Below, piece after piece: positions 3,351-32,100 of a DNA stretch of 32,461 bases. The position numbers were made by a program, and so were the translations under genes. The notes beneath the pieces are model-generated. The model was not told where the DNA came from, ran no database searches, and saw only the letters and a program-made list of their open reading frames with translations. The stretch is from NCBI RefSeq assembly GCF_016756745.1, contig NZ_JAESIH010000035.1, forward strand, positions 1 through 32,461, read 5' to 3'. Source of the DNA: Aminivibrio sp. (GTDB lineage: Bacteria; Synergistota; Synergistia; Synergistales; Aminobacteriaceae). Within the stretch, counting starts at the first letter, position 1; every line of letters begins with the position of its first letter.

Positions 3351-4586
3351 TCAGCTCCCGGGGGACTGGGAAATCCGCGCGGTTTCCCCGGTATTCGGAC
3401 TTTCCACGGCTGCCGCGGCCATGTTTTCGAGAAGAATCAGGATGTGGAGAAGGTAGAGGAGAACTCCGCCGTCGGCTGCAAGGATCATACCCGTCAGAAT
3501 GGGCGGCAGCAGTCCGGGAAAGAGCATGGAGGTCCCGAACATGATGGAGAGAAGGTGCAGAACAGCCTGGGAGATGTTCAGCCGTACCAGGAGAGGCGGG
3601 ACAGGGTTTCCTCCCCGTTTACGGAGCCCCGAGAAGGTTCTCCGGAGTCCGTTGACCCCGCCGAAGATGTTCAGCACGCCGATGAGAACGGTCAGAAGGG
3701 GAACGAGAATTCCCGGGATAATACAGGAAATGATGCCGAGGGCAGAGAAAAGGATGCCGCAGAATATCACAAGCCGGGTTCGGCGGAAGGGACCGATGGG
3801 GGTATTTCCGGTGGAAAGCATCTGGAAGGCCATGATCACCATGAGCAGGCCGAGCTGGGCGCTTGCGGCGAAAGGAAGCATGCCGAGGCTCACAGGAACG
3901 AGGAGGATGCCGAGAAGGATCATAAAGATGCCCGTGAGAAGAATGATGGAATGGTCTGATGAAAGGGTTCGGTTCCCGCTTTCTTTTTCTTCCGGAAGGG
4001 GGTGAGCCCTGTAAATTCTTTTCATCACCATAGCCAGGAAAAGAACGGCCGCACCGAAGGCCAGAACGGCGAAAGCCGTTTCATCGCCGCCGAGCAGGCC
4101 CTGGTTCAGCACGAGCACGCCCATCAGCATGGAAAGGAGGTAGACAGCGGCACAGCCTATCCACAGAAGGTGGAATATGCCTCCCAAGCGGGCCCAGGCG
4201 CGAAACCTGTCGGGGGCGAGGAAAAGATGAGCCAAAAGGGCTGCACCCCCGGGAGTGAAACAGAGAAAGAGCACTATGGCGGGGAAGAGGCTGAAGATGT
4301 CGGGAATGAAGCAGGTCACTATCCCGGCTGATGCGACGGCGAGACCGGCGAAAAGAACGGGGTTCGACCGTTTCATGTCCCCGAAGGGGGTGTTTCCCAG
4401 GAGAATGATCTGCAGGGCAAACAGGAAGAGCACCAGGCCGTAGACCCCGTTTTCATAGTAGGGAACGGCCCCTCTCGTGACAGGGAAAAGCAGTATGCCG
4501 GTCATGACCATCATCAGGCCTGCAATGAGAAGAATCACCACGTCCAGCGTGAGGTCCGTTTCTTCAAGGAAAAAGTCCCTGTTCAT
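3351..4586 (-). CDS. Polytopic membrane protein with internal duplication
   Basis: A 411-residue integral membrane protein with about ten to twelve hydrophobic segments and no recognised enzymatic motif. Two halves are related: GNTPFG near residue 64 and GNTPIG near residue 260 are each followed by a basic patch and a similar helix pair ending FIPDI and IIPGI. This points to ancient duplication with a period of about 196 residues. A charged loop (PLPEEKESGNRTLSS) links the halves. The layout is loosely reminiscent of HdeD/DUF308-type proteins, but I would not name it. The start is the ATG at 4586, with AAAGGAG 8 bases upstream; the TTG directly before it is not preferred. It is divergent from the operon at 4864. 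Confidence 0.8.
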   Translation of the reverse strand: MNRDFFLEETDLTLDVVILLIAGLMMVMTGILLFPVTRGAVPYYENGVYGLVLFLFALQIILLGNTPFGDMKRSNPVLFAGLAVASAGIVTCFIPDIFSLFPAIVLFLCFTPGGAALLAHLFLAPDRFRAWARLGGIFHLLWIGCAAVYLLSMLMGVLVLNQGLLGGDETAFAVLAFGAAVLFLAMVMKRIYRAHPLPEEKESGNRTLSSDHSIILLTGIFMILLGILLVPVSLGMLPFAASAQLGLLMVIMAFQMLSTGNTPIGPFRRTRLVIFCGILFSALGIISCIIPGILVPLLTVLIGVLNIFGGVNGLRRTFSGLRKRGGNPVPPLLVRLNISQAVLHLLSIMFGTSMLFPGLLPPILTGMILAADGGVLLYLLHILILLENMAAAAVESPNTGETARISQSPGS

Positions 4587-4795
4587 CAAACCCGCTCCTT
4601 TCTTTCGTCCTGACCTCGTCGTTCCTGAAGGGAGTTTTTAGGACGAGTGAGAAAATTTTCTTTATTTTACGCCCTATTCCTCTTTTTTTCACCTCTCTGC
4701 CGGGAAATATAAATCCGCAGGCAGCGGAGAGTATCACCGGAGCCCGTGGGTTTAGGAGGAAAGATTTCTGTCTGCCGCTCAAGCCGCGGGAAAAA

Positions 4796-4804
4796 TGATA
4801 CAAT
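4796..4804 (+). promoter_or_regulatory. Extended -10 promoter candidate for the CPBP operon
   Basis: TGATACAAT at 4796-4804 is an extended -10 element (TGn plus TACAAT) about 60 bases before the first start codon. No good -35 is present at the expected distance, which extended -10 promoters can tolerate. Confidence 0.4.
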
Positions 4805-4863
4805 GGCGAAAAGAAGGCCTGTTCCGGCCCGACGTTGACGGTTGCCGAGTAAAGGAGATACTT

Positions 4864-5124
4864 ATGAACCTGGATACCATAGCCGATTTTTCCTTTGTGC
4901 GGCCTCTTGCTCCCCTGCTGCTTCTGCTGCTGATTCTTGCGGCCGCCCTTCCTTTTCTGCGCCGTTCCGGGAAGGAACGAATTTTTTTTGCCGCCATCGC
5001 ACTTTTCTTTTGCGGCGCGGCCGGTGTTTTTTTCCTGCTTGGACAGCCTCTTGCCGCCTTTTCCGTGTTTTTTGTTCCGGCCCTTCTCTGCGGAATTTTA
5101 CGGAATGCGGGACGAAAAAAATGA
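4864..5124 (+). CDS. Small membrane protein (86 residues)
   Basis: No family is recognised. The protein has two to three strongly hydrophobic segments (around residues 14-32, 41-60 and 63-80) separated by short basic loops (RRSGKER) and a basic tail (RNAGRKK). The start at 4864 is set by AAAGGAG 6 bases upstream; in-frame upstream starts lack one. Its stop overlaps the start of the CPBP protease gene in an ATGA, so the two products are probably made in a fixed ratio and may form a membrane pair. Function is unknown. Confidence 0.75.
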   Translation: MNLDTIADFSFVRPLAPLLLLLLILAAALPFLRRSGKERIFFAAIALFFCGAAGVFFLLGQPLAAFSVFFVPALLCGILRNAGRKK

Positions 5125-5633
5125 AGGACGTGCTGCTCTTCGCTTTTTTTCTCTATTTCCCTTACGGCTGGTGTGCACTGTCCGGGAAACCCAGGGAATC
5201 CTTCGGGCTGATCTGGACTGTGGATCGGCATGTCCTTCGAGACGTTGCGGCAGTTTCTCTTCTGACCCTGCTGCCCCTGACGGCCGTCTCCCTTTTCTTT
5301 TTCGGGGACCGTCTTTTCCCTCCGGCCCTGCGGTCGGTTCCCGCAGCCGTCCTCTCCGGGCTTGCGGCAGCCGTGGCTGAAGAAACCTTCTTCAGGGGAT
5401 GGGTTCAGACCATGCTTGGATACCGTTTTCCCAGGGGATGGAGCATTGTCCTGGCATCTGCCCTTTTCGGGCTTGCCCACCTGGCCGCACCCCACGCTCC
5501 CTTCGCGACGCTCGCTTTCTTTCCGGGGCTGGCCATGGGCTACCTCCGGGACCGTCACGGATCGGTATTTTCGGCGATTCTCTACCACTGGATCGGCAAT
5601 ATATGGTCCATCTGGCTGTATCCTCGTTTCTGA
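5121..5633 (+). CDS. CPBP-family glutamic intramembrane protease (CAAX protease-like)
   Basis: A 170-residue multispanning protein with the three conserved CPBP motifs: EETFFRG (residues 87-93, catalytic glutamates and arginine), FGLAH (116-120) and HWIGN (156-160). Such enzymes cleave within membranes. Bacterial members take part in prenyl-protein-like processing, bacteriocin immunity, or removal of C-terminal sorting signals. It is shorter than many family members (200-300 residues), with only a brief N-terminal extension, like proteases dedicated to a sorting-signal system. It is translationally coupled to the small membrane protein upstream and followed 26 bases later by a secreted protein. 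Its substrate is not visible. Confidence 0.88.
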   Translation: MKDVLLFAFFLYFPYGWCALSGKPRESFGLIWTVDRHVLRDVAAVSLLTLLPLTAVSLFFFGDRLFPPALRSVPAAVLSGLAAAVAEETFFRGWVQTMLGYRFPRGWSIVLASALFGLAHLAAPHAPFATLAFFPGLAMGYLRDRHGSVFSAILYHWIGNIWSIWLYPRF

Positions 5634-5659
5634 GAAATACGTAGAAAGGAGTTTTTTCT

Positions 5660-6733
5660 ATGAAATACCTTCGTTCCATGTCCATGATCATTCCGGCTGT
5701 TGTGTCCGTCGTCGCGGCCTTGTGCTTTTCGTCTCCCGCCTATGCGGGGCCCGTCTACAGAATCGTGGTGCCCCTCGTCCGGGGAGAGGAGGCACGGGCG
5801 GAGCTTCCCGACGGGCGCGTTTTCCTCCTGGGAAAAGTGACGGGTCTGCCCACGGCAACCCGCTGGCCGGGGTACACCGCTTCGAAATGGGCCGCACCGG
5901 GTACTGTGGCAGCCTCGGCGGTAAATGCCGTTCATCTCACTCTTTCGGTTGAAAAGGACGCCGGAAGAACCATGAGCATCCTGCCGCTCCACACGGTGGC
6001 TCCCGCAGCCGGTGAAAAGGCCTTCATCACCCTTGACGTTCCGGCGGGCACAGGTTTCTTCGGAGGCTGGGCTCCTCCTGTGGGGACCAGGGTACTGGTG
6101 AGGAAGCCCGATGGCGGGATGATCCCCCTGGAGGTCAGCGGCCTTCCCTCTCCTGGTGACGAACTGGTTTTTGACGTTGAGGAAAAAGAGCGTCCCTATA
6201 TTATTGACGTGGAGAACCGCCCCGGAGGGCGGGTTCTGGGCTGGTATACGGCGGGCCCGAAAGTCCTGGCCCGGGTTATCCGCCCGGTGAGAGGGGTCGG
6301 AAGGTTCGGAGGGACGGAGTTTCAGAGCCGGGGAAGGATCAGGGCGAACCATTCAGGGGTCATCGACGTGAGCACCACAGGCAGGGGCGTGACCGGAGGA
6401 TTCCAGGTGCTTCCCTTCCTCCACTCAAAGTCAAAAGAGATGGCAGGAGCTTGGCAGGCCACCCAGTGGCTCATCATCGCGTCCGAAACGGATCGGCCGT
6501 TGCCGGGAACGGCGCCCCTTTTCCTTGGGAACCTCGTTCCCGGAAGCCAACTTTCCGATGTTCTCTGGGATATCTGGTCCACCTACGGCAGGAAACCCCT
6601 GGTCCTCTGCCGCATGGACGGCGGCCCGTGGGAAAAGCTGCCTGAAGAGGGGGGCAAGCAGGATTTCGCCCTGGAACGGGTGACCCACATCCGGATTTAC
6701 AGCCCCTTCACCGAGGAGCCCCAGAAACGGTGA
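5660..6733 (+). CDS. Secreted protein of unknown function (357 residues)
   Basis: A clear signal peptide, with basic MKYLR, a hydrophobic core and the cleavage site AYA-GP near residue 29, sends this protein across the membrane. The mature part is rich in Gly, Pro and beta-forming residues, with short strands such as RVLVRKPDGG and RVLGWYTAGP suggesting beta domains. I recognise no catalytic motif, no cysteine pattern and no C-terminal sorting signal or anchor. AAAGGAG lies 9 bases before the ATG. It is the last gene of the small plus-strand operon and ends at a bidirectional terminator, so it may be handled by or functionally linked to the CPBP protease; that link is only positional. Confidence 0.8.
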   Translation: MKYLRSMSMIIPAVVSVVAALCFSSPAYAGPVYRIVVPLVRGEEARAELPDGRVFLLGKVTGLPTATRWPGYTASKWAAPGTVAASAVNAVHLTLSVEKDAGRTMSILPLHTVAPAAGEKAFITLDVPAGTGFFGGWAPPVGTRVLVRKPDGGMIPLEVSGLPSPGDELVFDVEEKERPYIIDVENRPGGRVLGWYTAGPKVLARVIRPVRGVGRFGGTEFQSRGRIRANHSGVIDVSTTGRGVTGGFQVLPFLHSKSKEMAGAWQATQWLIIASETDRPLPGTAPLFLGNLVPGSQLSDVLWDIWSTYGRKPLVLCRMDGGPWEKLPEEGGKQDFALERVTHIRIYSPFTEEPQKR

Positions 6734-6750: not shown

Positions 6751-6794
6751 AAGTAAAGGGCACGGGTATTTCTCCCGCGCCCTTTACTTTTATT
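6751..6794. terminator. Bidirectional terminator between the secreted protein gene and glmS
   Basis: A long hairpin, AAGTAAAGGGC paired with GCCCTTTACTT plus an inner CGGG/CCCG, ends in CTTTTATT on the plus strand. On the minus strand it overlaps the glmS stop and ends in a weaker T run (TTTACTTAT). It serves two convergent operons. Confidence 0.8.
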
Positions 6795-8628
6795 CTACCG
6801 TGACGCTCTTTGCGAGGTTCCGCGGCTGGTCGATGTGACAGCCCAGGAACCTGGCGAAGAAGTAGGAGAAGAGCTGCAGGGGAACCACAGTGAGGAACGG
6901 GGTGAACTGGTCCAGGGTCTCAGGGACGAAGAAAATGTGGTCAACGACCCCGTCCAGGGAATCATCACCTTCGGTGGCGATGGCAATGACCGGAGATTTC
7001 CTCGCCTTGGCCTCCAGGATATTGGAGAAGGTCTTTTCGTGAAGCCCGTCCTTCGGAGTGATGACCACCACCGGGACCCTGGGGTCCAGAAGGGCTATGG
7101 GGCCGTGTTTCATTTCCCCGGCCGCGTAGGCCTCGGCGTGGACGTAGGAAATCTCTTTGAGCTTCAGGGCTCCTTCGAGGGCCACCGGGTAGGAGATGCC
7201 TCTCCCGAGGAAGAGAAAATCCCGAGCGTCGTTGTAGAGCATGGCCGTCTCCTGGAGGCTCTCTTGCCGCTGGAGCACGGACTCGAGCTTGTAGGGAAGC
7301 ACTGTGAGCTCATCGCAGTATTTTTTTTCCTGTTCGGGAGTCAGCTTACCCTGCATCTTCGCCAGGTGGATGGCCAGGAGGTAGAGGACGGCCATCTGGC
7401 CCATAAATGTCTTGGTCGCCGCAACCCCGATTTCTGGCCCTGCCTTGAGCTGCAGAATGTCGTGGACCTCCCTGGCGATGGTGGAGCCCACCACATTGGT
7501 AACGGCAAGGCAGCGGGCTCCCTTCTCCCGGGCGATCCGTTCCGCCGCGAGAGTGTCTGCCGTCTCTCCCGACTGGGAGACGAACAACGCGAGGGTGTCA
7601 GGACCCAGGGGAATGTTTCTGTAGCGGTATTCGGACGCCACGTCCACCCTAATGTCGAAGTCGGTGATGGTTTCGAGAAAACGCTCCGCCACGAGGGCGG
7701 CGTAATAGGAGGTTCCGCAGGCGACGATATGGAGCCTCTTCCAGGAGGCCACGTCCTCCTTCGTCCAGGGAAGCTCGGCAGAGAGATCCACCGTTCCTTC
7801 CGTCAGCCTTTTGGCCATGGAGTTTCGGAGGACCGCCCCCTGCTCGTTTATCTCCTTGAGCATGAAATGGGGGTACCCTCCCTTGTCGACCATTGTGACG
7901 TCCCAGTCGATATGGGTCGGGGTTTTTTCCTGCTTCTCACCCTTTGCGTTCCAGAAGAGAATGCCTTCGGCCGAAAGCACGGCGATATCACCGTCGTCAA
8001 GGTAGACCACGTCCTGGGTGTAGGGAAGGATGGCCGGAACATCGGATGCGCAGAAAGTTTCACCTTTCCGGGAAGACCCGACGACGAGGGGAGATCCTTT
8101 TCTGAGGCAGTAAATTTTTCCCGGGGCTTCCCTGGCCATGATCACGAGGGCAAAGGACCCGCGCAGCCGGGCATAGAGTTCCACGAGGGCCTCAACCATG
8201 CAGCCCTTGGCGCTGTAGAGCCTCGAAAGCAGCTCGGCCACCACTTCGGTGTCCGTCTCGGACTTGTAGTCGCCGCAGGCTTCCTCATCCAGTTCCCTGC
8301 GGATCTCACGGTAGTTTTCCACTATTCCGTTATGGACGAGCACGAGGCTCGAGGAGAGGTCAGAATGGGGATGGGCGTTTACTTCCGTTACTCCGCCGTG
8401 GGTGGCCCACCGGGTGTGCCCGATGCCCTGACTTCCGCTAACGGGGTGGTCCTCCAGAATTTTCTCGAGGTCTGCGACCTTCCCAACACCTTTGACGATG
8501 TAAAGCTCCGGGGCATCCATGAGGGCGACCCCCGCCGAGTCGTACCCTCTGTATTCAAGACTCCGCATCCCATGTATCAGAACGTCCTTGACGTTCCTTC
8601 CGCCGATATACCCTACTATACCGCACAT
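6790..8628 (-). CDS. glmS: Glutamine-fructose-6-phosphate aminotransferase (isomerising)
   Basis: GlmS makes glucosamine-6-phosphate from fructose-6-phosphate and glutamine, the first committed step to UDP-GlcNAc for the cell wall. The protein has 612 residues, normal for the family. The start is fixed at MCGIVGYIGG because Cys2 is the glutaminase nucleophile, exposed after Met removal; the in-frame upstream extension covers ribozyme sequence and is not coding. The N-terminal class II glutaminase domain is followed by two SIS sugar-isomerase domains (for example VACGTSYYA and FVSQSGETADTL), and the C-terminus KSVTVE is canonical. It ends the cdaA-cdaR-glmM-galU-glmS run and is preceded by a glmS ribozyme, which should repress it when glucosamine-6-phosphate accumulates. 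Confidence 0.98.
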   Translation of the reverse strand: MCGIVGYIGGRNVKDVLIHGMRSLEYRGYDSAGVALMDAPELYIVKGVGKVADLEKILEDHPVSGSQGIGHTRWATHGGVTEVNAHPHSDLSSSLVLVHNGIVENYREIRRELDEEACGDYKSETDTEVVAELLSRLYSAKGCMVEALVELYARLRGSFALVIMAREAPGKIYCLRKGSPLVVGSSRKGETFCASDVPAILPYTQDVVYLDDGDIAVLSAEGILFWNAKGEKQEKTPTHIDWDVTMVDKGGYPHFMLKEINEQGAVLRNSMAKRLTEGTVDLSAELPWTKEDVASWKRLHIVACGTSYYAALVAERFLETITDFDIRVDVASEYRYRNIPLGPDTLALFVSQSGETADTLAAERIAREKGARCLAVTNVVGSTIAREVHDILQLKAGPEIGVAATKTFMGQMAVLYLLAIHLAKMQGKLTPEQEKKYCDELTVLPYKLESVLQRQESLQETAMLYNDARDFLFLGRGISYPVALEGALKLKEISYVHAEAYAAGEMKHGPIALLDPRVPVVVITPKDGLHEKTFSNILEAKARKSPVIAIATEGDDSLDGVVDHIFFVPETLDQFTPFLTVVPLQLFSYFFARFLGCHIDQPRNLAKSVTVE

Positions 8629-8639
8629 ATTCCATACAC

Positions 8640-8806
8640 CGCCTTTATCCGCTAAACGAAAACTGCCTTCACTTTTGTGGCGGAAATTGCTTCCCGCTTT
8701 TGTATGAAGACTTTGCGGGCCGGTTTTCACGGCCCCGGAGGCATCCGCCGAATCTTCGATACTCCTCCGTCCTCGTCAGCCGGGATGTTTTCCGGCGCAG
8801 GCGCTT
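8640..8806 (-). ncRNA. glmS ribozyme: glmS ribozyme (glucosamine-6-phosphate-activated self-cleaving riboswitch)
   Basis: The leader of glmS contains the glmS ribozyme core. The cleavage-site sequence AA|GCGCC has G+1 at 8804. It is followed by a short P1 (GCCGG/CCGGC), the invariant GACGAGG, then GGAGTATCGAAGATTCGGCG and GATGCCTCC, which are the conserved P2/P2.1 core. A P3 hairpin (GGGCCG/CGGCCC) comes next. The 3' end (P4 region) is less clear, so the right-hand limit near the start codon is approximate. When glucosamine-6-phosphate binds, the RNA cleaves itself just after galU, and the exposed 5'-OH end marks glmS mRNA for degradation. The upstream genes should be spared. Confidence 0.92.
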
Positions 8807-8821
8807 CACCGGGTGCGCTTT

Positions 8822-9694
8822 TTACATCTGCTCCATTTGCGCTACAGCCCTGAGCACCACCTCCCTCAGATCCGGATTGATCATGGCAAACTGGATGTTG
8901 GCCGACAGCCACCCCGGCTGGGTGCCGCAGTCAAACCGCCTGCCGCGATAAACTACGCCCCAGACGGGTTCCCTGGAAAGTAGGGTTCGTATGGCGTCGG
9001 TGAGCTGTATCTCTCCCCCCGCCCCTGCCTGCTGACCGGTCAGGATGGGAAAAATCGACGGCGAGAGAACGTACCGGCCCATGACGGCAAGGTTGCTCGG
9101 AGCCGTTCCGGGAGCCGGCTTCTCCACCATATCCCGGACGGCGAAAATTCCGGGAGCCGCTTCTTCCGCTCTGACCACCCCGTACCGGGACGTTTCTTCA
9201 GCAGAGACTTCCTCCAGGGCGACGACGTTGCCTCCCCGCTCCTCATGAACGGCGATGAGCTGGGCGAGAACCGAGGGGCACGCGATCATGACATCATCGG
9301 GAAGAATGACGCCGAAATACTCGTTCCGGCACACAGGCTCGCCGCAGAGAACCGCGTGGCCGAGGCCCAGGGGGCGGTGCTGCCTGAGGTAAATGAAATC
9401 CGCCAACTCCGAGAGAGAGATCACCTCGTCGTAGAGGGTTCTCTTGTTTCTGGCCTTGAGCATTTCCTCGAGCTCGAAAGAGCGGTCAAAATAGTCTTCT
9501 ATTGACTTTTTGGACCTGCCGGTGATCATGACCATCTCGCGGCACCCTGCCGCGATAGCCTCCTCAACGCCATAGGCGATGATGGGCCGGTCCACCAGGG
9601 GGAGCATTTCCTTGGCAATTTCCTTGGTTGCCGGCAGAAAGCGGGTTCCCAGGCCGGCCACGGGAAAGAGGCATTTTTTAATGGATGAGGGCAT
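8822..9694 (-). CDS. galU: UTP-glucose-1-phosphate uridylyltransferase
   Basis: This enzyme makes UDP-glucose from UTP and glucose-1-phosphate for cell-surface glycans. The protein has about 290 residues, normal for bacterial GalU. It shows the nucleotidyltransferase signature GLGTRFLPATKE near the N-terminus, then HRPLGLGHAVLC, the metal-binding segment VILPDDV, and GGEIQLTDAI near the C-terminus. The start at 9694 has AAGGTG 9 bases upstream; an ATG at 9703 is possible but sits almost on top of the ribosome-binding site. It lies between glmM and the glmS ribozyme, in a run of sugar-phosphate genes. A dTDP-glucose pyrophosphorylase is less likely given these motifs. Confidence 0.95.
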   Translation of the reverse strand: MPSSIKKCLFPVAGLGTRFLPATKEIAKEMLPLVDRPIIAYGVEEAIAAGCREMVMITGRSKKSIEDYFDRSFELEEMLKARNKRTLYDEVISLSELADFIYLRQHRPLGLGHAVLCGEPVCRNEYFGVILPDDVMIACPSVLAQLIAVHEERGGNVVALEEVSAEETSRYGVVRAEEAAPGIFAVRDMVEKPAPGTAPSNLAVMGRYVLSPSIFPILTGQQAGAGGEIQLTDAIRTLLSREPVWGVVYRGRRFDCGTQPGWLSANIQFAMINPDLREVVLRAVAQMEQM

Positions 9695-9724
9695 GATATC
9701 CATCACCTTTCCTGATACAAAGTT

Positions 9725-11089
9725 TTATCTGCATTTCTCACGAATAGCGTTCACGAGCATGTCCGCAACTTCTTCCATGAGTTTTCTGTCCCTGGCTTCC
9801 ACGAGAATTCTCATGAGGGGCTCAGTGCCGGACGGCCGGATGAGAATGCGACCGGCTCCTCCCAGCAGGGACTCCATGTCGGAAGAAAGTTCCTTTATGA
9901 AATCGCCGTTCACTTGTTTCTCCCTCGAAATCTCAACGTTCCTGAGAATCTGGGGGTAGGGAGAAAATCTGTCGGCTAGGGTGTCGATATCCTCGCCCAG
10001 GGAGAGGCATGCCTTGAGGAAATAGAGCCCCGTACAGATGCCGTCCCCGGTGTTGACAACCGAGGAGATGATCACGTGGCCTGACTGTTCTCCTCCCAGG
10101 CGGGATCCCGTGGCATTCATGGTCTCCATGACGTACCTGTCCCCCACCCGGCACCGGTGGACCTTCAGGTTCTCCCTTCCGAGGTGTTCCTCCAGGGCCA
10201 TGTTGCTCATCAACGTCGCCACGACTCCCGAGCCGAGGCATCCCGCCGAGGCGAGCCACCGGCCGAGAATCCACAGTATGATGTCACCGTCAAGGAGCCG
10301 TCCCCTGCTGTCCGACAGGAGGACCCGGTCGGCGTCTCCGTCGTAGGCTATTCCCACGGGGAGCCCTTTCTCCTTAACGAGGCCGCATATATGGGACATC
10401 TTCATCACGCCCACGCCCTCGTTGATGTTCAGCCCGTCAGGCTCGTTTCCCACCACGGTCCACCTGCCGCCGAGTTTCTCCAGGAGGGAGGGGGCAACGA
10501 AGGATGCGGCGCCGTGGGCGCAGTCCACCGCGCCTTCCGCCGGAAAAGGCAGCTCGCGGCCCCAGAGGGAGGCGAGCCAGTCACCGTATTCTCCGACAAG
10601 TTCGGGAGTGTGCCTCATTACGCCCACCGATGCGCCGGTGGGGCGCCAATCGTCGGTAAGGTTGTCTCCCATATATTCCTCGATGGCCGCCTCCATTTCA
10701 TCGGAGAGCTTGTAGCCTTCACCGTCGAGAAATTTGATTCCGTTATACTCCGCAGGATTGTGGGATGCGCTGATTACCGCGCCGCCGTGCATACCCGTTT
10801 TTTTGACGGCAAAGCTGACGCCGGGGGTCGGTATCACTCCGAGGAGGAACACTTCCGCCCCTGCGGAGGTCATGCCGGCGGCAAGGGCGGCCTCCAGCAT
10901 CTGCCCCGACCGCCTCGTATCCCTTCCAACGGCAATCCGGGGCCTCGGAACACCCCTTTCAGTGAGGAAGAGAATGTAGGAACGCCCGAGACGCAGGGCC
11001 ATTTCCGGAGTCATGTCTCCCCTGTTGGCGACATCCCGGACGCCGTCGGTTCCGAAAAGGCAGCGCACTCTTTCGGGGTTGCTCGTCAT
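9725..11089 (-). CDS. glmM: Phosphoglucosamine mutase
   Basis: This enzyme converts glucosamine-6-phosphate to glucosamine-1-phosphate on the way to UDP-GlcNAc. The 454-residue protein has all phosphohexomutase landmarks: LFGTDGVRD at the N-terminus, the phosphoserine loop ISASHNP (active Ser about residue 109), the metal loop YDGDADRV, the sugar-specificity loop GGEQSGH and the phosphate-binding loop RPSGTEPLMR. The ATG at 11089 follows GTGAGG. It lies just downstream of cdaR; in Firmicutes the CdaA-CdaR-GlmM proteins interact, and GlmM inhibits the cyclase CdaA. Confidence 0.97.
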   Translation of the reverse strand: MTSNPERVRCLFGTDGVRDVANRGDMTPEMALRLGRSYILFLTERGVPRPRIAVGRDTRRSGQMLEAALAAGMTSAGAEVFLLGVIPTPGVSFAVKKTGMHGGAVISASHNPAEYNGIKFLDGEGYKLSDEMEAAIEEYMGDNLTDDWRPTGASVGVMRHTPELVGEYGDWLASLWGRELPFPAEGAVDCAHGAASFVAPSLLEKLGGRWTVVGNEPDGLNINEGVGVMKMSHICGLVKEKGLPVGIAYDGDADRVLLSDSRGRLLDGDIILWILGRWLASAGCLGSGVVATLMSNMALEEHLGRENLKVHRCRVGDRYVMETMNATGSRLGGEQSGHVIISSVVNTGDGICTGLYFLKACLSLGEDIDTLADRFSPYPQILRNVEISREKQVNGDFIKELSSDMESLLGGAGRILIRPSGTEPLMRILVEARDRKLMEEVADMLVNAIREKCR

Positions 11090-11120: not shown

Positions 11121-12347
11121 TCACGGTACGTCTGCAATGACCGTAACATTCGAAGGTTCGACCCTGAGGACCTTCAGCTTCCCTTCGGTCCTGTTCCGGA
11201 CCCGCACGGGAACGGTCAAACGACGGGAAACGACGTTGGTCACGTTGACAAAGGGCTGAATGAGGAGTTCCTTTTCATCCAGGGAATTGACTTCCGAAGG
11301 GACTCCTTCCACGGTGATGTCCACCGAGGCAGGCTCAACTTTCCACTTGGGATAGACGCTCTTTCCCTCCACTTCCACGGTCACCCGGGACAGAAGACGG
11401 GTCACGGTAAAGGGCGTCAAAAGAACATTCACCCTCACGGAAGTGGCCCCGACGATCTTCACCAGCGGGTCTTCCGGCTCCCTGAGAGGGATGACCATGT
11501 TCTGTTCTTTTGCGATGTCGGTGAGGTCAATGGTTTCGGTATCCACCTTCGTCACCCGGTCAAGCTTCGCCAGGGGGCCTTCCACGGTGACCACTGCGGG
11601 CTCCACAACAACGGCCTTGAGACGGAAGTCTTCCATGGGTTTGCCGATGATCCGGGCATTCACAGGAACGTTCTTCTTCGGCACGCCTTCCGCAAGGACG
11701 GCGCTGAATTTCACCCGCTTCGGCTCAAAGGTCACTTCGTCCTCGAATTCTTCGGATTTGACTATTTCCACGGGCAAAGAAAGCTCCCCTCCCGCCTTGA
11801 GGTCCTCGAGAGAGGGAGTGATCCTGGCGGAACCGATCTTCGCAAGATCCTTCTCGCTCCCTTTCACGCTTATATCCTTGGGAACGATCTCCACCATGTC
11901 GAGATAGAGTCCGGGGGGCAGACCTTTGTCAACGACAACTTCCACGGGGATGAGTCTGTCAATGTACCGGAGAAGTTCAATATCGACATGGGTCGGAACC
12001 ACGTCCACCAGTTTCACGTCCTTGGGGGCGATGGCCCGCACTGCCAGCCTGTATTTTCCCACACCGAGCCCCCTGGCGTCCACCTCGCAGACCACCGCTT
12101 CCGGCGTCAGGGACGAGAGTACGCCCGGAGAACCGGAAAGAACCACCTCTACCTCTTTCACAGGCCCCTTCAGGGTTGTCTGGGGGGGGACGTTGAGGTA
12201 TTCGAGAGGGACGGACAGACTTCTCGTCGTTTCGGTAGTTCTGCTTCCCGAAGCGTAAAACCAGAAAGCCAGAGCAATGAGCACGGCCATTACACGAAGG
12301 AACATGGGAGAGGATATTATATCATCTGTTTTCGGTGTTTCGGCCAT
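11121..12347 (-). CDS. cdaR: YbbR-domain protein CdaR, regulator of the CdaA diadenylate cyclase
   Basis: A 408-residue protein with one N-terminal membrane anchor (FLRVMAVLIALAFWFYASG) and an extracytoplasmic part made of repeated YbbR beta domains, seen as recurring P-V-(E)-V strands such as IPVEVVV, LSLPVEIV and LTVPVRV. CdaR modulates the c-di-AMP synthase CdaA across the membrane. The order cdaA-cdaR-glmM is a conserved cluster, which makes the call firm. The start ATG at 12347 has GAGGAGG upstream. The gene is 38 bases after cdaA and 31 bases before glmM, in one probable operon. Confidence 0.93.
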   Translation of the reverse strand: MAETPKTDDIISSPMFLRVMAVLIALAFWFYASGSRTTETTRSLSVPLEYLNVPPQTTLKGPVKEVEVVLSGSPGVLSSLTPEAVVCEVDARGLGVGKYRLAVRAIAPKDVKLVDVVPTHVDIELLRYIDRLIPVEVVVDKGLPPGLYLDMVEIVPKDISVKGSEKDLAKIGSARITPSLEDLKAGGELSLPVEIVKSEEFEDEVTFEPKRVKFSAVLAEGVPKKNVPVNARIIGKPMEDFRLKAVVVEPAVVTVEGPLAKLDRVTKVDTETIDLTDIAKEQNMVIPLREPEDPLVKIVGATSVRVNVLLTPFTVTRLLSRVTVEVEGKSVYPKWKVEPASVDITVEGVPSEVNSLDEKELLIQPFVNVTNVVSRRLTVPVRVRNRTEGKLKVLRVEPSNVTVIADVP

Positions 12348-12385: not shown

Positions 12386-13198
12386 TCAGGTCCAGAGGGT
12401 CCTGATGTCCTCCTGCAGCCTGTCGAGCAGCGATTTGTTCTCCTCGTCCTCGCCGCCGAAATAATGGAGCAGCAGTTTCTGCACCTGGGCCTCCTTGAGG
12501 TTTTTGGAAAGATGGCCGTTAATGGCCAGGGATACTTCCCCTCTTTCCTCGGACACCACCAGGGCGATGGCATCGGAAACCTCGGTGACTCCGAGAGCGG
12601 CCCTGTGACGGGTACCTATCCACCGTGAAAGGTCTGAATTCTCGGTGAGGGGCAGGTAGCAGCTTGCAGCGACGATGATGTCCCTGTCAATGATGACGGC
12701 CCCGTCGTGGAGAGGGTTCCCCTCCCAGAATATGGAGATCAGGAGTTCCTGGGTGACATCGGCGTTCAGCTTGATGGCCGTTCTCCAGAAATCCTTCAGG
12801 CCTGTGTTTCGTTCAAGGACGATGAGGGCTCCGATTTTCTGCCCCTTGAGATAGCTGATGGCCCTGGCGACTTCATGACTCAAGAGTTCTGCTTTTTTTC
12901 CGGTTTTTTTCCTCTGCCACAGTCTTCCGCCCCTTCCCAGCTCCTCGAGCATTTTCCGCAGCTCGGGCTGGAAGACAATGGGAATGGCGATGACCAGCAC
13001 CCCCAGAACCTTCCCAAGAAACCACGAGAGGGTTCGAAGGTCGAATATCCGAGCAGCCTCAGCAAGGGCCCCCATGATGAGAAGCCCTTTCACCAGCTGC
13101 ATCGCCCTTGTGCCTACGATCAGCAGAAGCAGTCTGTGGACGATTATGGAAATGAGTACAATGTCGATGGCGTCCTGCCACCGGAAAAAATCAAGCAT
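12386..13198 (-). CDS. cdaA: Diadenylate cyclase CdaA (c-di-AMP synthase)
   Basis: This enzyme makes cyclic di-AMP from two ATP; c-di-AMP controls potassium and osmolyte balance and cell-wall homeostasis. The 270-residue protein has three N-terminal membrane helices (about residues 10-80) and a cytoplasmic DAC domain. Both catalytic motifs are intact: DGA within NPLHDGAVII and RHR within GTRHRAALG. The tail is acidic and probably helical. Length and layout match CdaA (DacA) of Firmicutes. It heads the cdaA-cdaR-glmM-galU-glmS set. Confidence 0.97.
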   Translation of the reverse strand: MLDFFRWQDAIDIVLISIIVHRLLLLIVGTRAMQLVKGLLIMGALAEAARIFDLRTLSWFLGKVLGVLVIAIPIVFQPELRKMLEELGRGGRLWQRKKTGKKAELLSHEVARAISYLKGQKIGALIVLERNTGLKDFWRTAIKLNADVTQELLISIFWEGNPLHDGAVIIDRDIIVAASCYLPLTENSDLSRWIGTRHRAALGVTEVSDAIALVVSEERGEVSLAINGHLSKNLKEAQVQKLLLHYFGGEDEENKSLLDRLQEDIRTLWT

Positions 13199-31470: not shown

Positions 31471-32100
31471 TCAGATATGCATAACCCCGAGGCCGCATCG
31501 TTCGTGATGTGCCACGGCGTGATAGGCTGTATCCCCCATGACGGCCACGGAGATCCACTTGCTGTTCCTGACGATGGCGATTTTCGCTCCCACGCTGGCT
31601 TCGAGCATTCCCACCACCAGGAAGCCGTCAAGGGCCTCCAGGGCAGCGTGCATGAGAGCATGCATTTCGTTCCGTTTCTTCTCCACTACCCCAGCGTTGA
31701 GCGAAGCCCCGACAAGCGCCCTGGTTATTTTCTGCGGGAGATCTCCCGCAAGCCCCCCCACTTCGGTGGCGACAGATCTCCAGCCGATGGACGAAAGCTC
31801 TTTCTTGAAAACGCACTCTGTCTCGTTGCTCGTCGTCGCCGCCAGAAGAAGGGCCGCCCTCCCCACCTGGCTCTCGTCTTCGATCCGAATCCTGAGGTTC
31901 AGGTCAATGCCCGGCTGCTCGCTCTCCACTCCCCTGGAGTTGATGTCCAACGACAGCGGCTCCTTTTCCCGGCCGTGAGACTGCGGGGAAGGCCGGGGAG
32001 TCCCTTCTTCAGGACATTCCGCTCCCGCTTCCATTTCCACAGATTCGTCCTCCAGCTCTTCCTGAGGGGCGTTGAAAATTTTCTTCCAGATCACGAACAT
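31471..32100 (-). CDS. hutP: HutP-family RNA-binding regulator with N-terminal extension
   Basis: A 209-residue protein whose C-terminal 135 residues match HutP, the hexameric antiterminator that binds mRNA when loaded with L-histidine and a divalent metal. The motif MHALMHAALEALDG carries His147 and His151, and the end ERCGLGVMHI carries His208; these correspond to the three metal-binding histidines of Bacillus HutP. HutP is normally about 150 residues; the first 65 here are acidic, Pro/Ser-rich and probably disordered. GAGGAG lies 4 bases before the ATG. There are no histidine-utilisation genes in the window, so its target is unknown. The symbol is by family, not proven orthology. Confidence 0.85.
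   Translation of the reverse strand: MFVIWKKIFNAPQEELEDESVEMEAGAECPEEGTPRPSPQSHGREKEPLSLDINSRGVESEQPGIDLNLRIRIEDESQVGRAALLLAATTSNETECVFKKELSSIGWRSVATEVGGLAGDLPQKITRALVGASLNAGVVEKKRNEMHALMHAALEALDGFLVVGMLEASVGAKIAIVRNSKWISVAVMGDTAYHAVAHHERCGLGVMHI

Follow-up and report, generated by a model that had tools for sequence, protein, structure and literature searches.

In Bacillus subtilis, the glmS ribozyme is located before glmS in a cdaA-cdaR-glmM-glmS operon (PMC6171935, PMC8537086). When glucosamine-6-phosphate (GlcN6P) is in excess, it acts as a cofactor with which the RNA cleaves itself, and the 5′-OH product is destroyed by RNase J1 (PMC7125110, PMC3997798, PMC11780869). The ribozyme consists of a core, formed by P2, P2.1, P2.2, and the cofactor pocket, and a periphery comprising P3/P3.1 and the L4 tetraloop on P1 (PMC7125110, PMC11602151). 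In S. aureus, the arrangement is cdaA-cdaR-glmM-(mtl, fmtB)-glmS, where mannitol and cell-wall genes separate glmM from the ribozyme-glmS unit (PMC8537086).

The locus considered here is part of a 32,461-nt stretch of Aminivibrio sp. DNA, referred to below as the window. On its minus strand, the genes follow in the order nfo-orr-cdaA-cdaR-glmM-galU-[ribozyme]-glmS, with GlmS, GalU, GlmM, and CdaA assigned by NCBIfam scores above curated cutoffs and CdaR by the Pfam YbbR domain:

6790..8628, minus strand: glmS, glutamine--fructose-6-phosphate aminotransferase (TIGR01135, 761.9 bits; ATG at 8628)
8637..8646, minus strand: Shine-Dalgarno (SD)-like AAAGGCGGTG of glmS, read from the sequence
8822..9706, minus strand: galU (TIGR01099, 344.6 bits; stop codon at 8824-8822)
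9725..11089, minus strand: glmM (TIGR01455, 471.5 bits)
11121..12347, minus strand: cdaR, YbbR domain (PF07949, 74.9 bits)
12386..13198, minus strand: cdaA, diadenylate cyclase (TIGR00159, 231 bits; PF02457)

The window resembles B. subtilis in that an RNA of the same family stands directly before glmS and that cdaA-cdaR-glmM lie upstream in both. It differs in having galU between glmM and the ribozyme, a cut 17 nt past the upstream stop codon, and, 11 nt ahead of that cut, a GCG triplet. Relative to the B. subtilis layout, galU is the insertion. Genes are likewise inserted at this place in S. aureus, but there they are mannitol and cell-wall genes. An earlier note on this DNA had proposed that the placement after galU would let GlcN6P lower glmS alone and so separate c-di-AMP control from hexosamine feedback; since B. 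subtilis shares the layout, such an uncoupling would not be special to the window.

When the window was searched with covariance models, as the earlier note had proposed, RF00234 (glmS ribozyme) matched at 8816..8655 on the minus strand with 97.2 bits (E value of 1e-21; cmscan), compared to a gathering score of 37 bits, and the match covered the complete model (positions 1-167). The element is a genuine glmS ribozyme of the known class, not a novel RNA, and both the identity and the conserved core that had been read from the letters are thereby confirmed. It is the single copy found by an Rfam scan of the whole 2.94-Mb genome. The interval first proposed, 8640-8806, includes the catalytic part of the ribozyme but misses 10 nt of the modelled 5′ flank. 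Alignment to the Rfam consensus places the cleavage between A8805 and G8804, in agreement with the 5′ end expected at G8804, and the ribozyme does lie directly after galU, whose stop codon precedes the cut by 17 nt. The parts of the ribozyme, defined with an alignment of 36 Synergistota ribozymes, are as follows:

8655..8816, minus strand: glmS ribozyme, full RF00234 model (cmscan)
8804..8805, minus strand: predicted cleavage site A8805|G8804 (Rfam consensus alignment; A-1, G+1, and GCGCC invariant in 36 relatives)
8778..8797, minus strand: P1 hairpin (double-sided changes at 6 of 7 pairs among relatives)
8737..8768, minus strand: P2/P2a, including the conserved core strand UCGGCGG (alignment and covariation)
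8717..8735, minus strand: P3 hairpin, whose loop (8728-8723, GAAAAC) pairs with 8663-8658 (GUUUUC) to form P3.1 (pairing-swap test)
8665..8711, minus strand: P4, with a GNRA (GCAA) loop capping the upper stem 8697-8680 (double-sided changes at all 14 pairs of helices 5 and 6)
8816..8818, minus strand: conserved GCG triplet of Synergistota ribozymes, here 11 nt 5′ of the cut

Across the 36 aligned ribozymes, 90.6% of cells in P1, P2, P2a, P3, P4, and the upper P4 stem were paired, compared to 72.6% in shuffled and 34 to 56% in slid alignments, and 220 double-sided changes were counted in the helices against 64 in shuffles. The P3.1 pseudoknot scored 15.9 with native partners and 12.3 ± 0.34 when loops and tails were swapped across genomes; in one relative (G043), its strands read GAGAGAC and GUCUCUC. 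Complementary strands of the P2.1/P2.2 double pseudoknot are present, and they are invariant in the 36-row alignment, so their covariation cannot be scored. The window ribozyme retains all 34 phylum-invariant columns of this alignment, which include the GNRA loop and the core strands; the latter, A|GCGCC, GACGAGG, and UCGGCGG, do not vary among the window and its 36 Synergistota relatives.

The distance from the cut to the glmS ATG at 8628 is 176 nt, and the ribozyme is thus located in the 5′ leader of glmS. We consider this ATG, behind the SD-like AAAGGCGGTG, to be the most likely start codon; it was preferred to a 646-amino acid open reading frame that begins at 8730, inside the ribozyme, and is purely mechanical. 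Spacings within the cdaA-cdaR-glmM-galU-cut run, calculated from open reading frame coordinates, are 17 to 38 nt. A consensus scan, applied here to a phylum with little promoter data, revealed neither a sigma-70-like promoter nor a terminator-like site in the galU-ribozyme interval on the minus strand. Because the gaps are short and no such site is listed, the simplest reading of glmS is as the last gene of a polycistronic message. A promoter of its own for glmS was also considered; the same scan gave none on the minus strand, which is weak evidence, promoters inside galU being possible.

Together, the full-length match, the intact core, and the covarying helices make it very likely that the element is a functional ribozyme-riboswitch, in which GlcN6P-triggered cleavage lowers glmS while the upstream frames remain complete. 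We infer the cleavage, the ligand, and the degradation step from the family to which the RNA belongs. Transcription of the nfo-orr-cdaA-cdaR-glmM-galU-glmS strand would pass through the ribozyme. Once abundant, GlcN6P, the product of GlmS, would bind as a cofactor, and the RNA would cut itself at A8805|G8804. The glmS fragment, now carrying a 5′-OH end, would then be degraded, most likely by RNase J, and less GlmS would be made. A protein of the RNase J family, with a predicted 5′-exonuclease activity, is encoded in the genome (G000:C63:11868-13496; TIGR00649, 535 bits compared to a cutoff of 400), so a decay route of the B. subtilis type may operate here. The galU-side fragment would retain the whole galU, glmM, cdaR, and cdaA frames; it is plausible that glmM, cdaA, and cdaR stay on after cleavage.

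The principal alternative is that cleavage reduces expression of the upstream genes as well. The unprotected 2′,3′-cyclic phosphate left near or inside galU could admit 3′→5′ decay or, where the stop codon is lost, ribosomes could undergo non-stop rescue, cutting the supply of GalU and perhaps of GlmM. If so, GlcN6P would brake the entire UDP-sugar supply and not just glmS. The geometry lends this idea some weight, as the stop-to-cut distance is short (a median of 31 nt in 46 galU-linked Synergistota ribozymes and 17 nt in the window) and no terminator-like hairpin is listed at 8800-8830 on the minus strand. According to covariance-model coordinates and in-frame translation of the relatives, the galU frame runs 18 nt past the cut in two close species (G021 and G022; loci L026 and L025), and the cut splits the galU stop codon as UA|G in G179 (L089), so that in these genomes a galU message without a stop codon would result. 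This is not the case in the window, where galU is complete and ends before the cut, and the stop codon is affected in just 3 of 46 relatives, two of which are closely related. On balance, we regard a lowering of the upstream genes as unlikely. With the ribozyme abutting galU, what becomes of the upstream cleavage product can be tested directly.

A further reading concerns the GCG triplet. In the window and in 49 of 61 Synergistota ribozymes (L008-L036, L084-L101, L106, and L148-L160), GCG (followed by B, H, and H) is found 9 to 15 nt upstream of the cut, compared to a local background of 15%. It was present in 31 of 40 non-redundant Synergistota ribozymes and in 1 of 31 from Bacillota. Since it occurs whichever gene is upstream, be it galU, glmM, or another, the triplet appears to belong with the ribozyme. 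A search for its pairing partner by the pairing-swap test in nine segments yielded none in which native pairs were clearly above swapped ones. A hairpin of GCG with CGC at +2..+4 was rejected, its energies being no better than those of shuffled flanks (mean z of −0.07). The triplet and the cuts that hit the galU stop codon or frame look like new, if modest, features of this lineage. Given how close the ribozyme lies to galU, whose stop codon it overlaps in some species, one could imagine a Synergistota variant in which GCG modulates folding or processing and the cut acts also on the galU message, making a two-sided switch; we think this improbable.

Very improbable is a decayed ribozyme that has kept its fold but lost cleavage, with glmS simply expressed from the operon: P1 of the window is short and imperfect (2 of 7 modelled pairs are non-standard), but all invariant core positions are intact, same-genus relatives retain the core and all helices, and 97 bits over the full length is a usual score for the phylum.

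A functional ribozyme that lowers glmS thus remains the preferred reading, and the same element is found in many relatives. The earlier note had suggested that the window might extend a class best known from Firmicutes. This did not hold: a glmS ribozyme scored above the cutoff in 63 of 188 Synergistota genomes (45 of 116 genomes of good quality; 26 of 63 genera), and the window ribozyme is therefore no outlier. Among 119 genomes sampled evenly across the phylum of Rossellomorea, by comparison, 78 have the ribozyme. A GlmS homologue is present in 168 of the 188 Synergistota genomes. Those with the ribozyme belong to 11 families, ten of them family codes in the window's order and one outside it. 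The closest named GlmS records come from Synergistaceae metagenome-assembled genomes, the best being 95% identical, which places the host in a Synergistaceae lineage and bears out the tentative Synergistota assignment of the earlier note. A full-text literature search, which the main surveys of the class lay beyond, found no published report of a glmS ribozyme in Synergistota; this does not imply absence from the wider literature or from Rfam. Presumably, routine Rfam annotation already marks these sites.

In most other Synergistota with the ribozyme, the gene order is nfo-orr-cdaA-cdaR-glmM-galU-glmS and the structure of the RNA is the same as in the window. They differ from it where galU is missing, in part of family f6, and where the ribozyme-glmS unit lies elsewhere, in family f3. 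When 40 ribozyme loci were sampled, glmS directly followed galU (or glmM, in part of f6) within the cda-glmM run in 37; the others were f3 loci, with ribozyme and glmS elsewhere, and one contig that begins at the ribozyme. In two f3 genomes (G011 and G015), cdaA is on the same contig ~370 kb from the ribozyme, and so ribozyme and glmS form a unit apart from the cda run. At ribozyme-free loci, glmS was without a cda-glmM-galU neighbor in 39 of 40 cases, the exception being G002, from another order, where galU ends 52 nt before glmS and leaves no space for a ribozyme. Most ribozyme-free genomes examined have glmM (17 of 18), mostly preceded by cdaR and in 11 followed by galU, with glmS not there.

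When mapped on a 92-row GlmS tree, presence or absence of the ribozyme required 3 changes, compared to a shuffled mean of ~30, although this tree comes from a quick search and has several long branches, and its details near the root are unsure. Within the window's order, the distribution fits one loss, in a 29-member GlmS clade outside the operon in which two families are mixed; a second change is the replacement, in part of family f1, of GlmS by a distant one that groups with Bacillota. Judged from this tree, the ribozyme looks ancestral in the order. The mixing of families within the out-of-operon GlmS clade suggests that ribozyme-free glmS may have spread horizontally. Seen in this way, a classic Firmicute riboswitch would be an old and widespread Synergistota trait tied to the c-di-AMP/hexosamine operon. 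The distribution also provides a natural experiment, with the ribozyme retained where glmS is still in the operon or lies elsewhere alongside it and missing from the GlmS clade outside the operon.

The ribozyme-free loci L107-L146 comprise the out-of-operon GlmS clade and the second, distant GlmS of f1, a composition that suggests horizontal gene replacement. Many Bacillota glmS ribozymes (L161-L192) have an SD-like AAGGAGGTGA ~25 to 45 nt upstream of the cut. The same SD-like motif is found upstream of the cut in Synergistota family f6, where a short upstream frame may end at the cut (L155).

Other parts of the window contain features of separate interest. Downstream of glmS, three successive open reading frames of 412, 269, and 256 amino acids (3351-6352, minus strand) are candidate genes with no Pfam or NCBIfam match. 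On the same strand, at 2229-2766, six tRNA genes are clustered (Val, Asp, Phe, Gly, Cys, and Asn). A HutP family protein (PF09021, 133 bits) is encoded at 31471-32100 on the minus strand, where a thyX-like gene and a DUF1385 gene lie close by; HutP is an antiterminator of the RNA-binding type, familiar from Bacillus.
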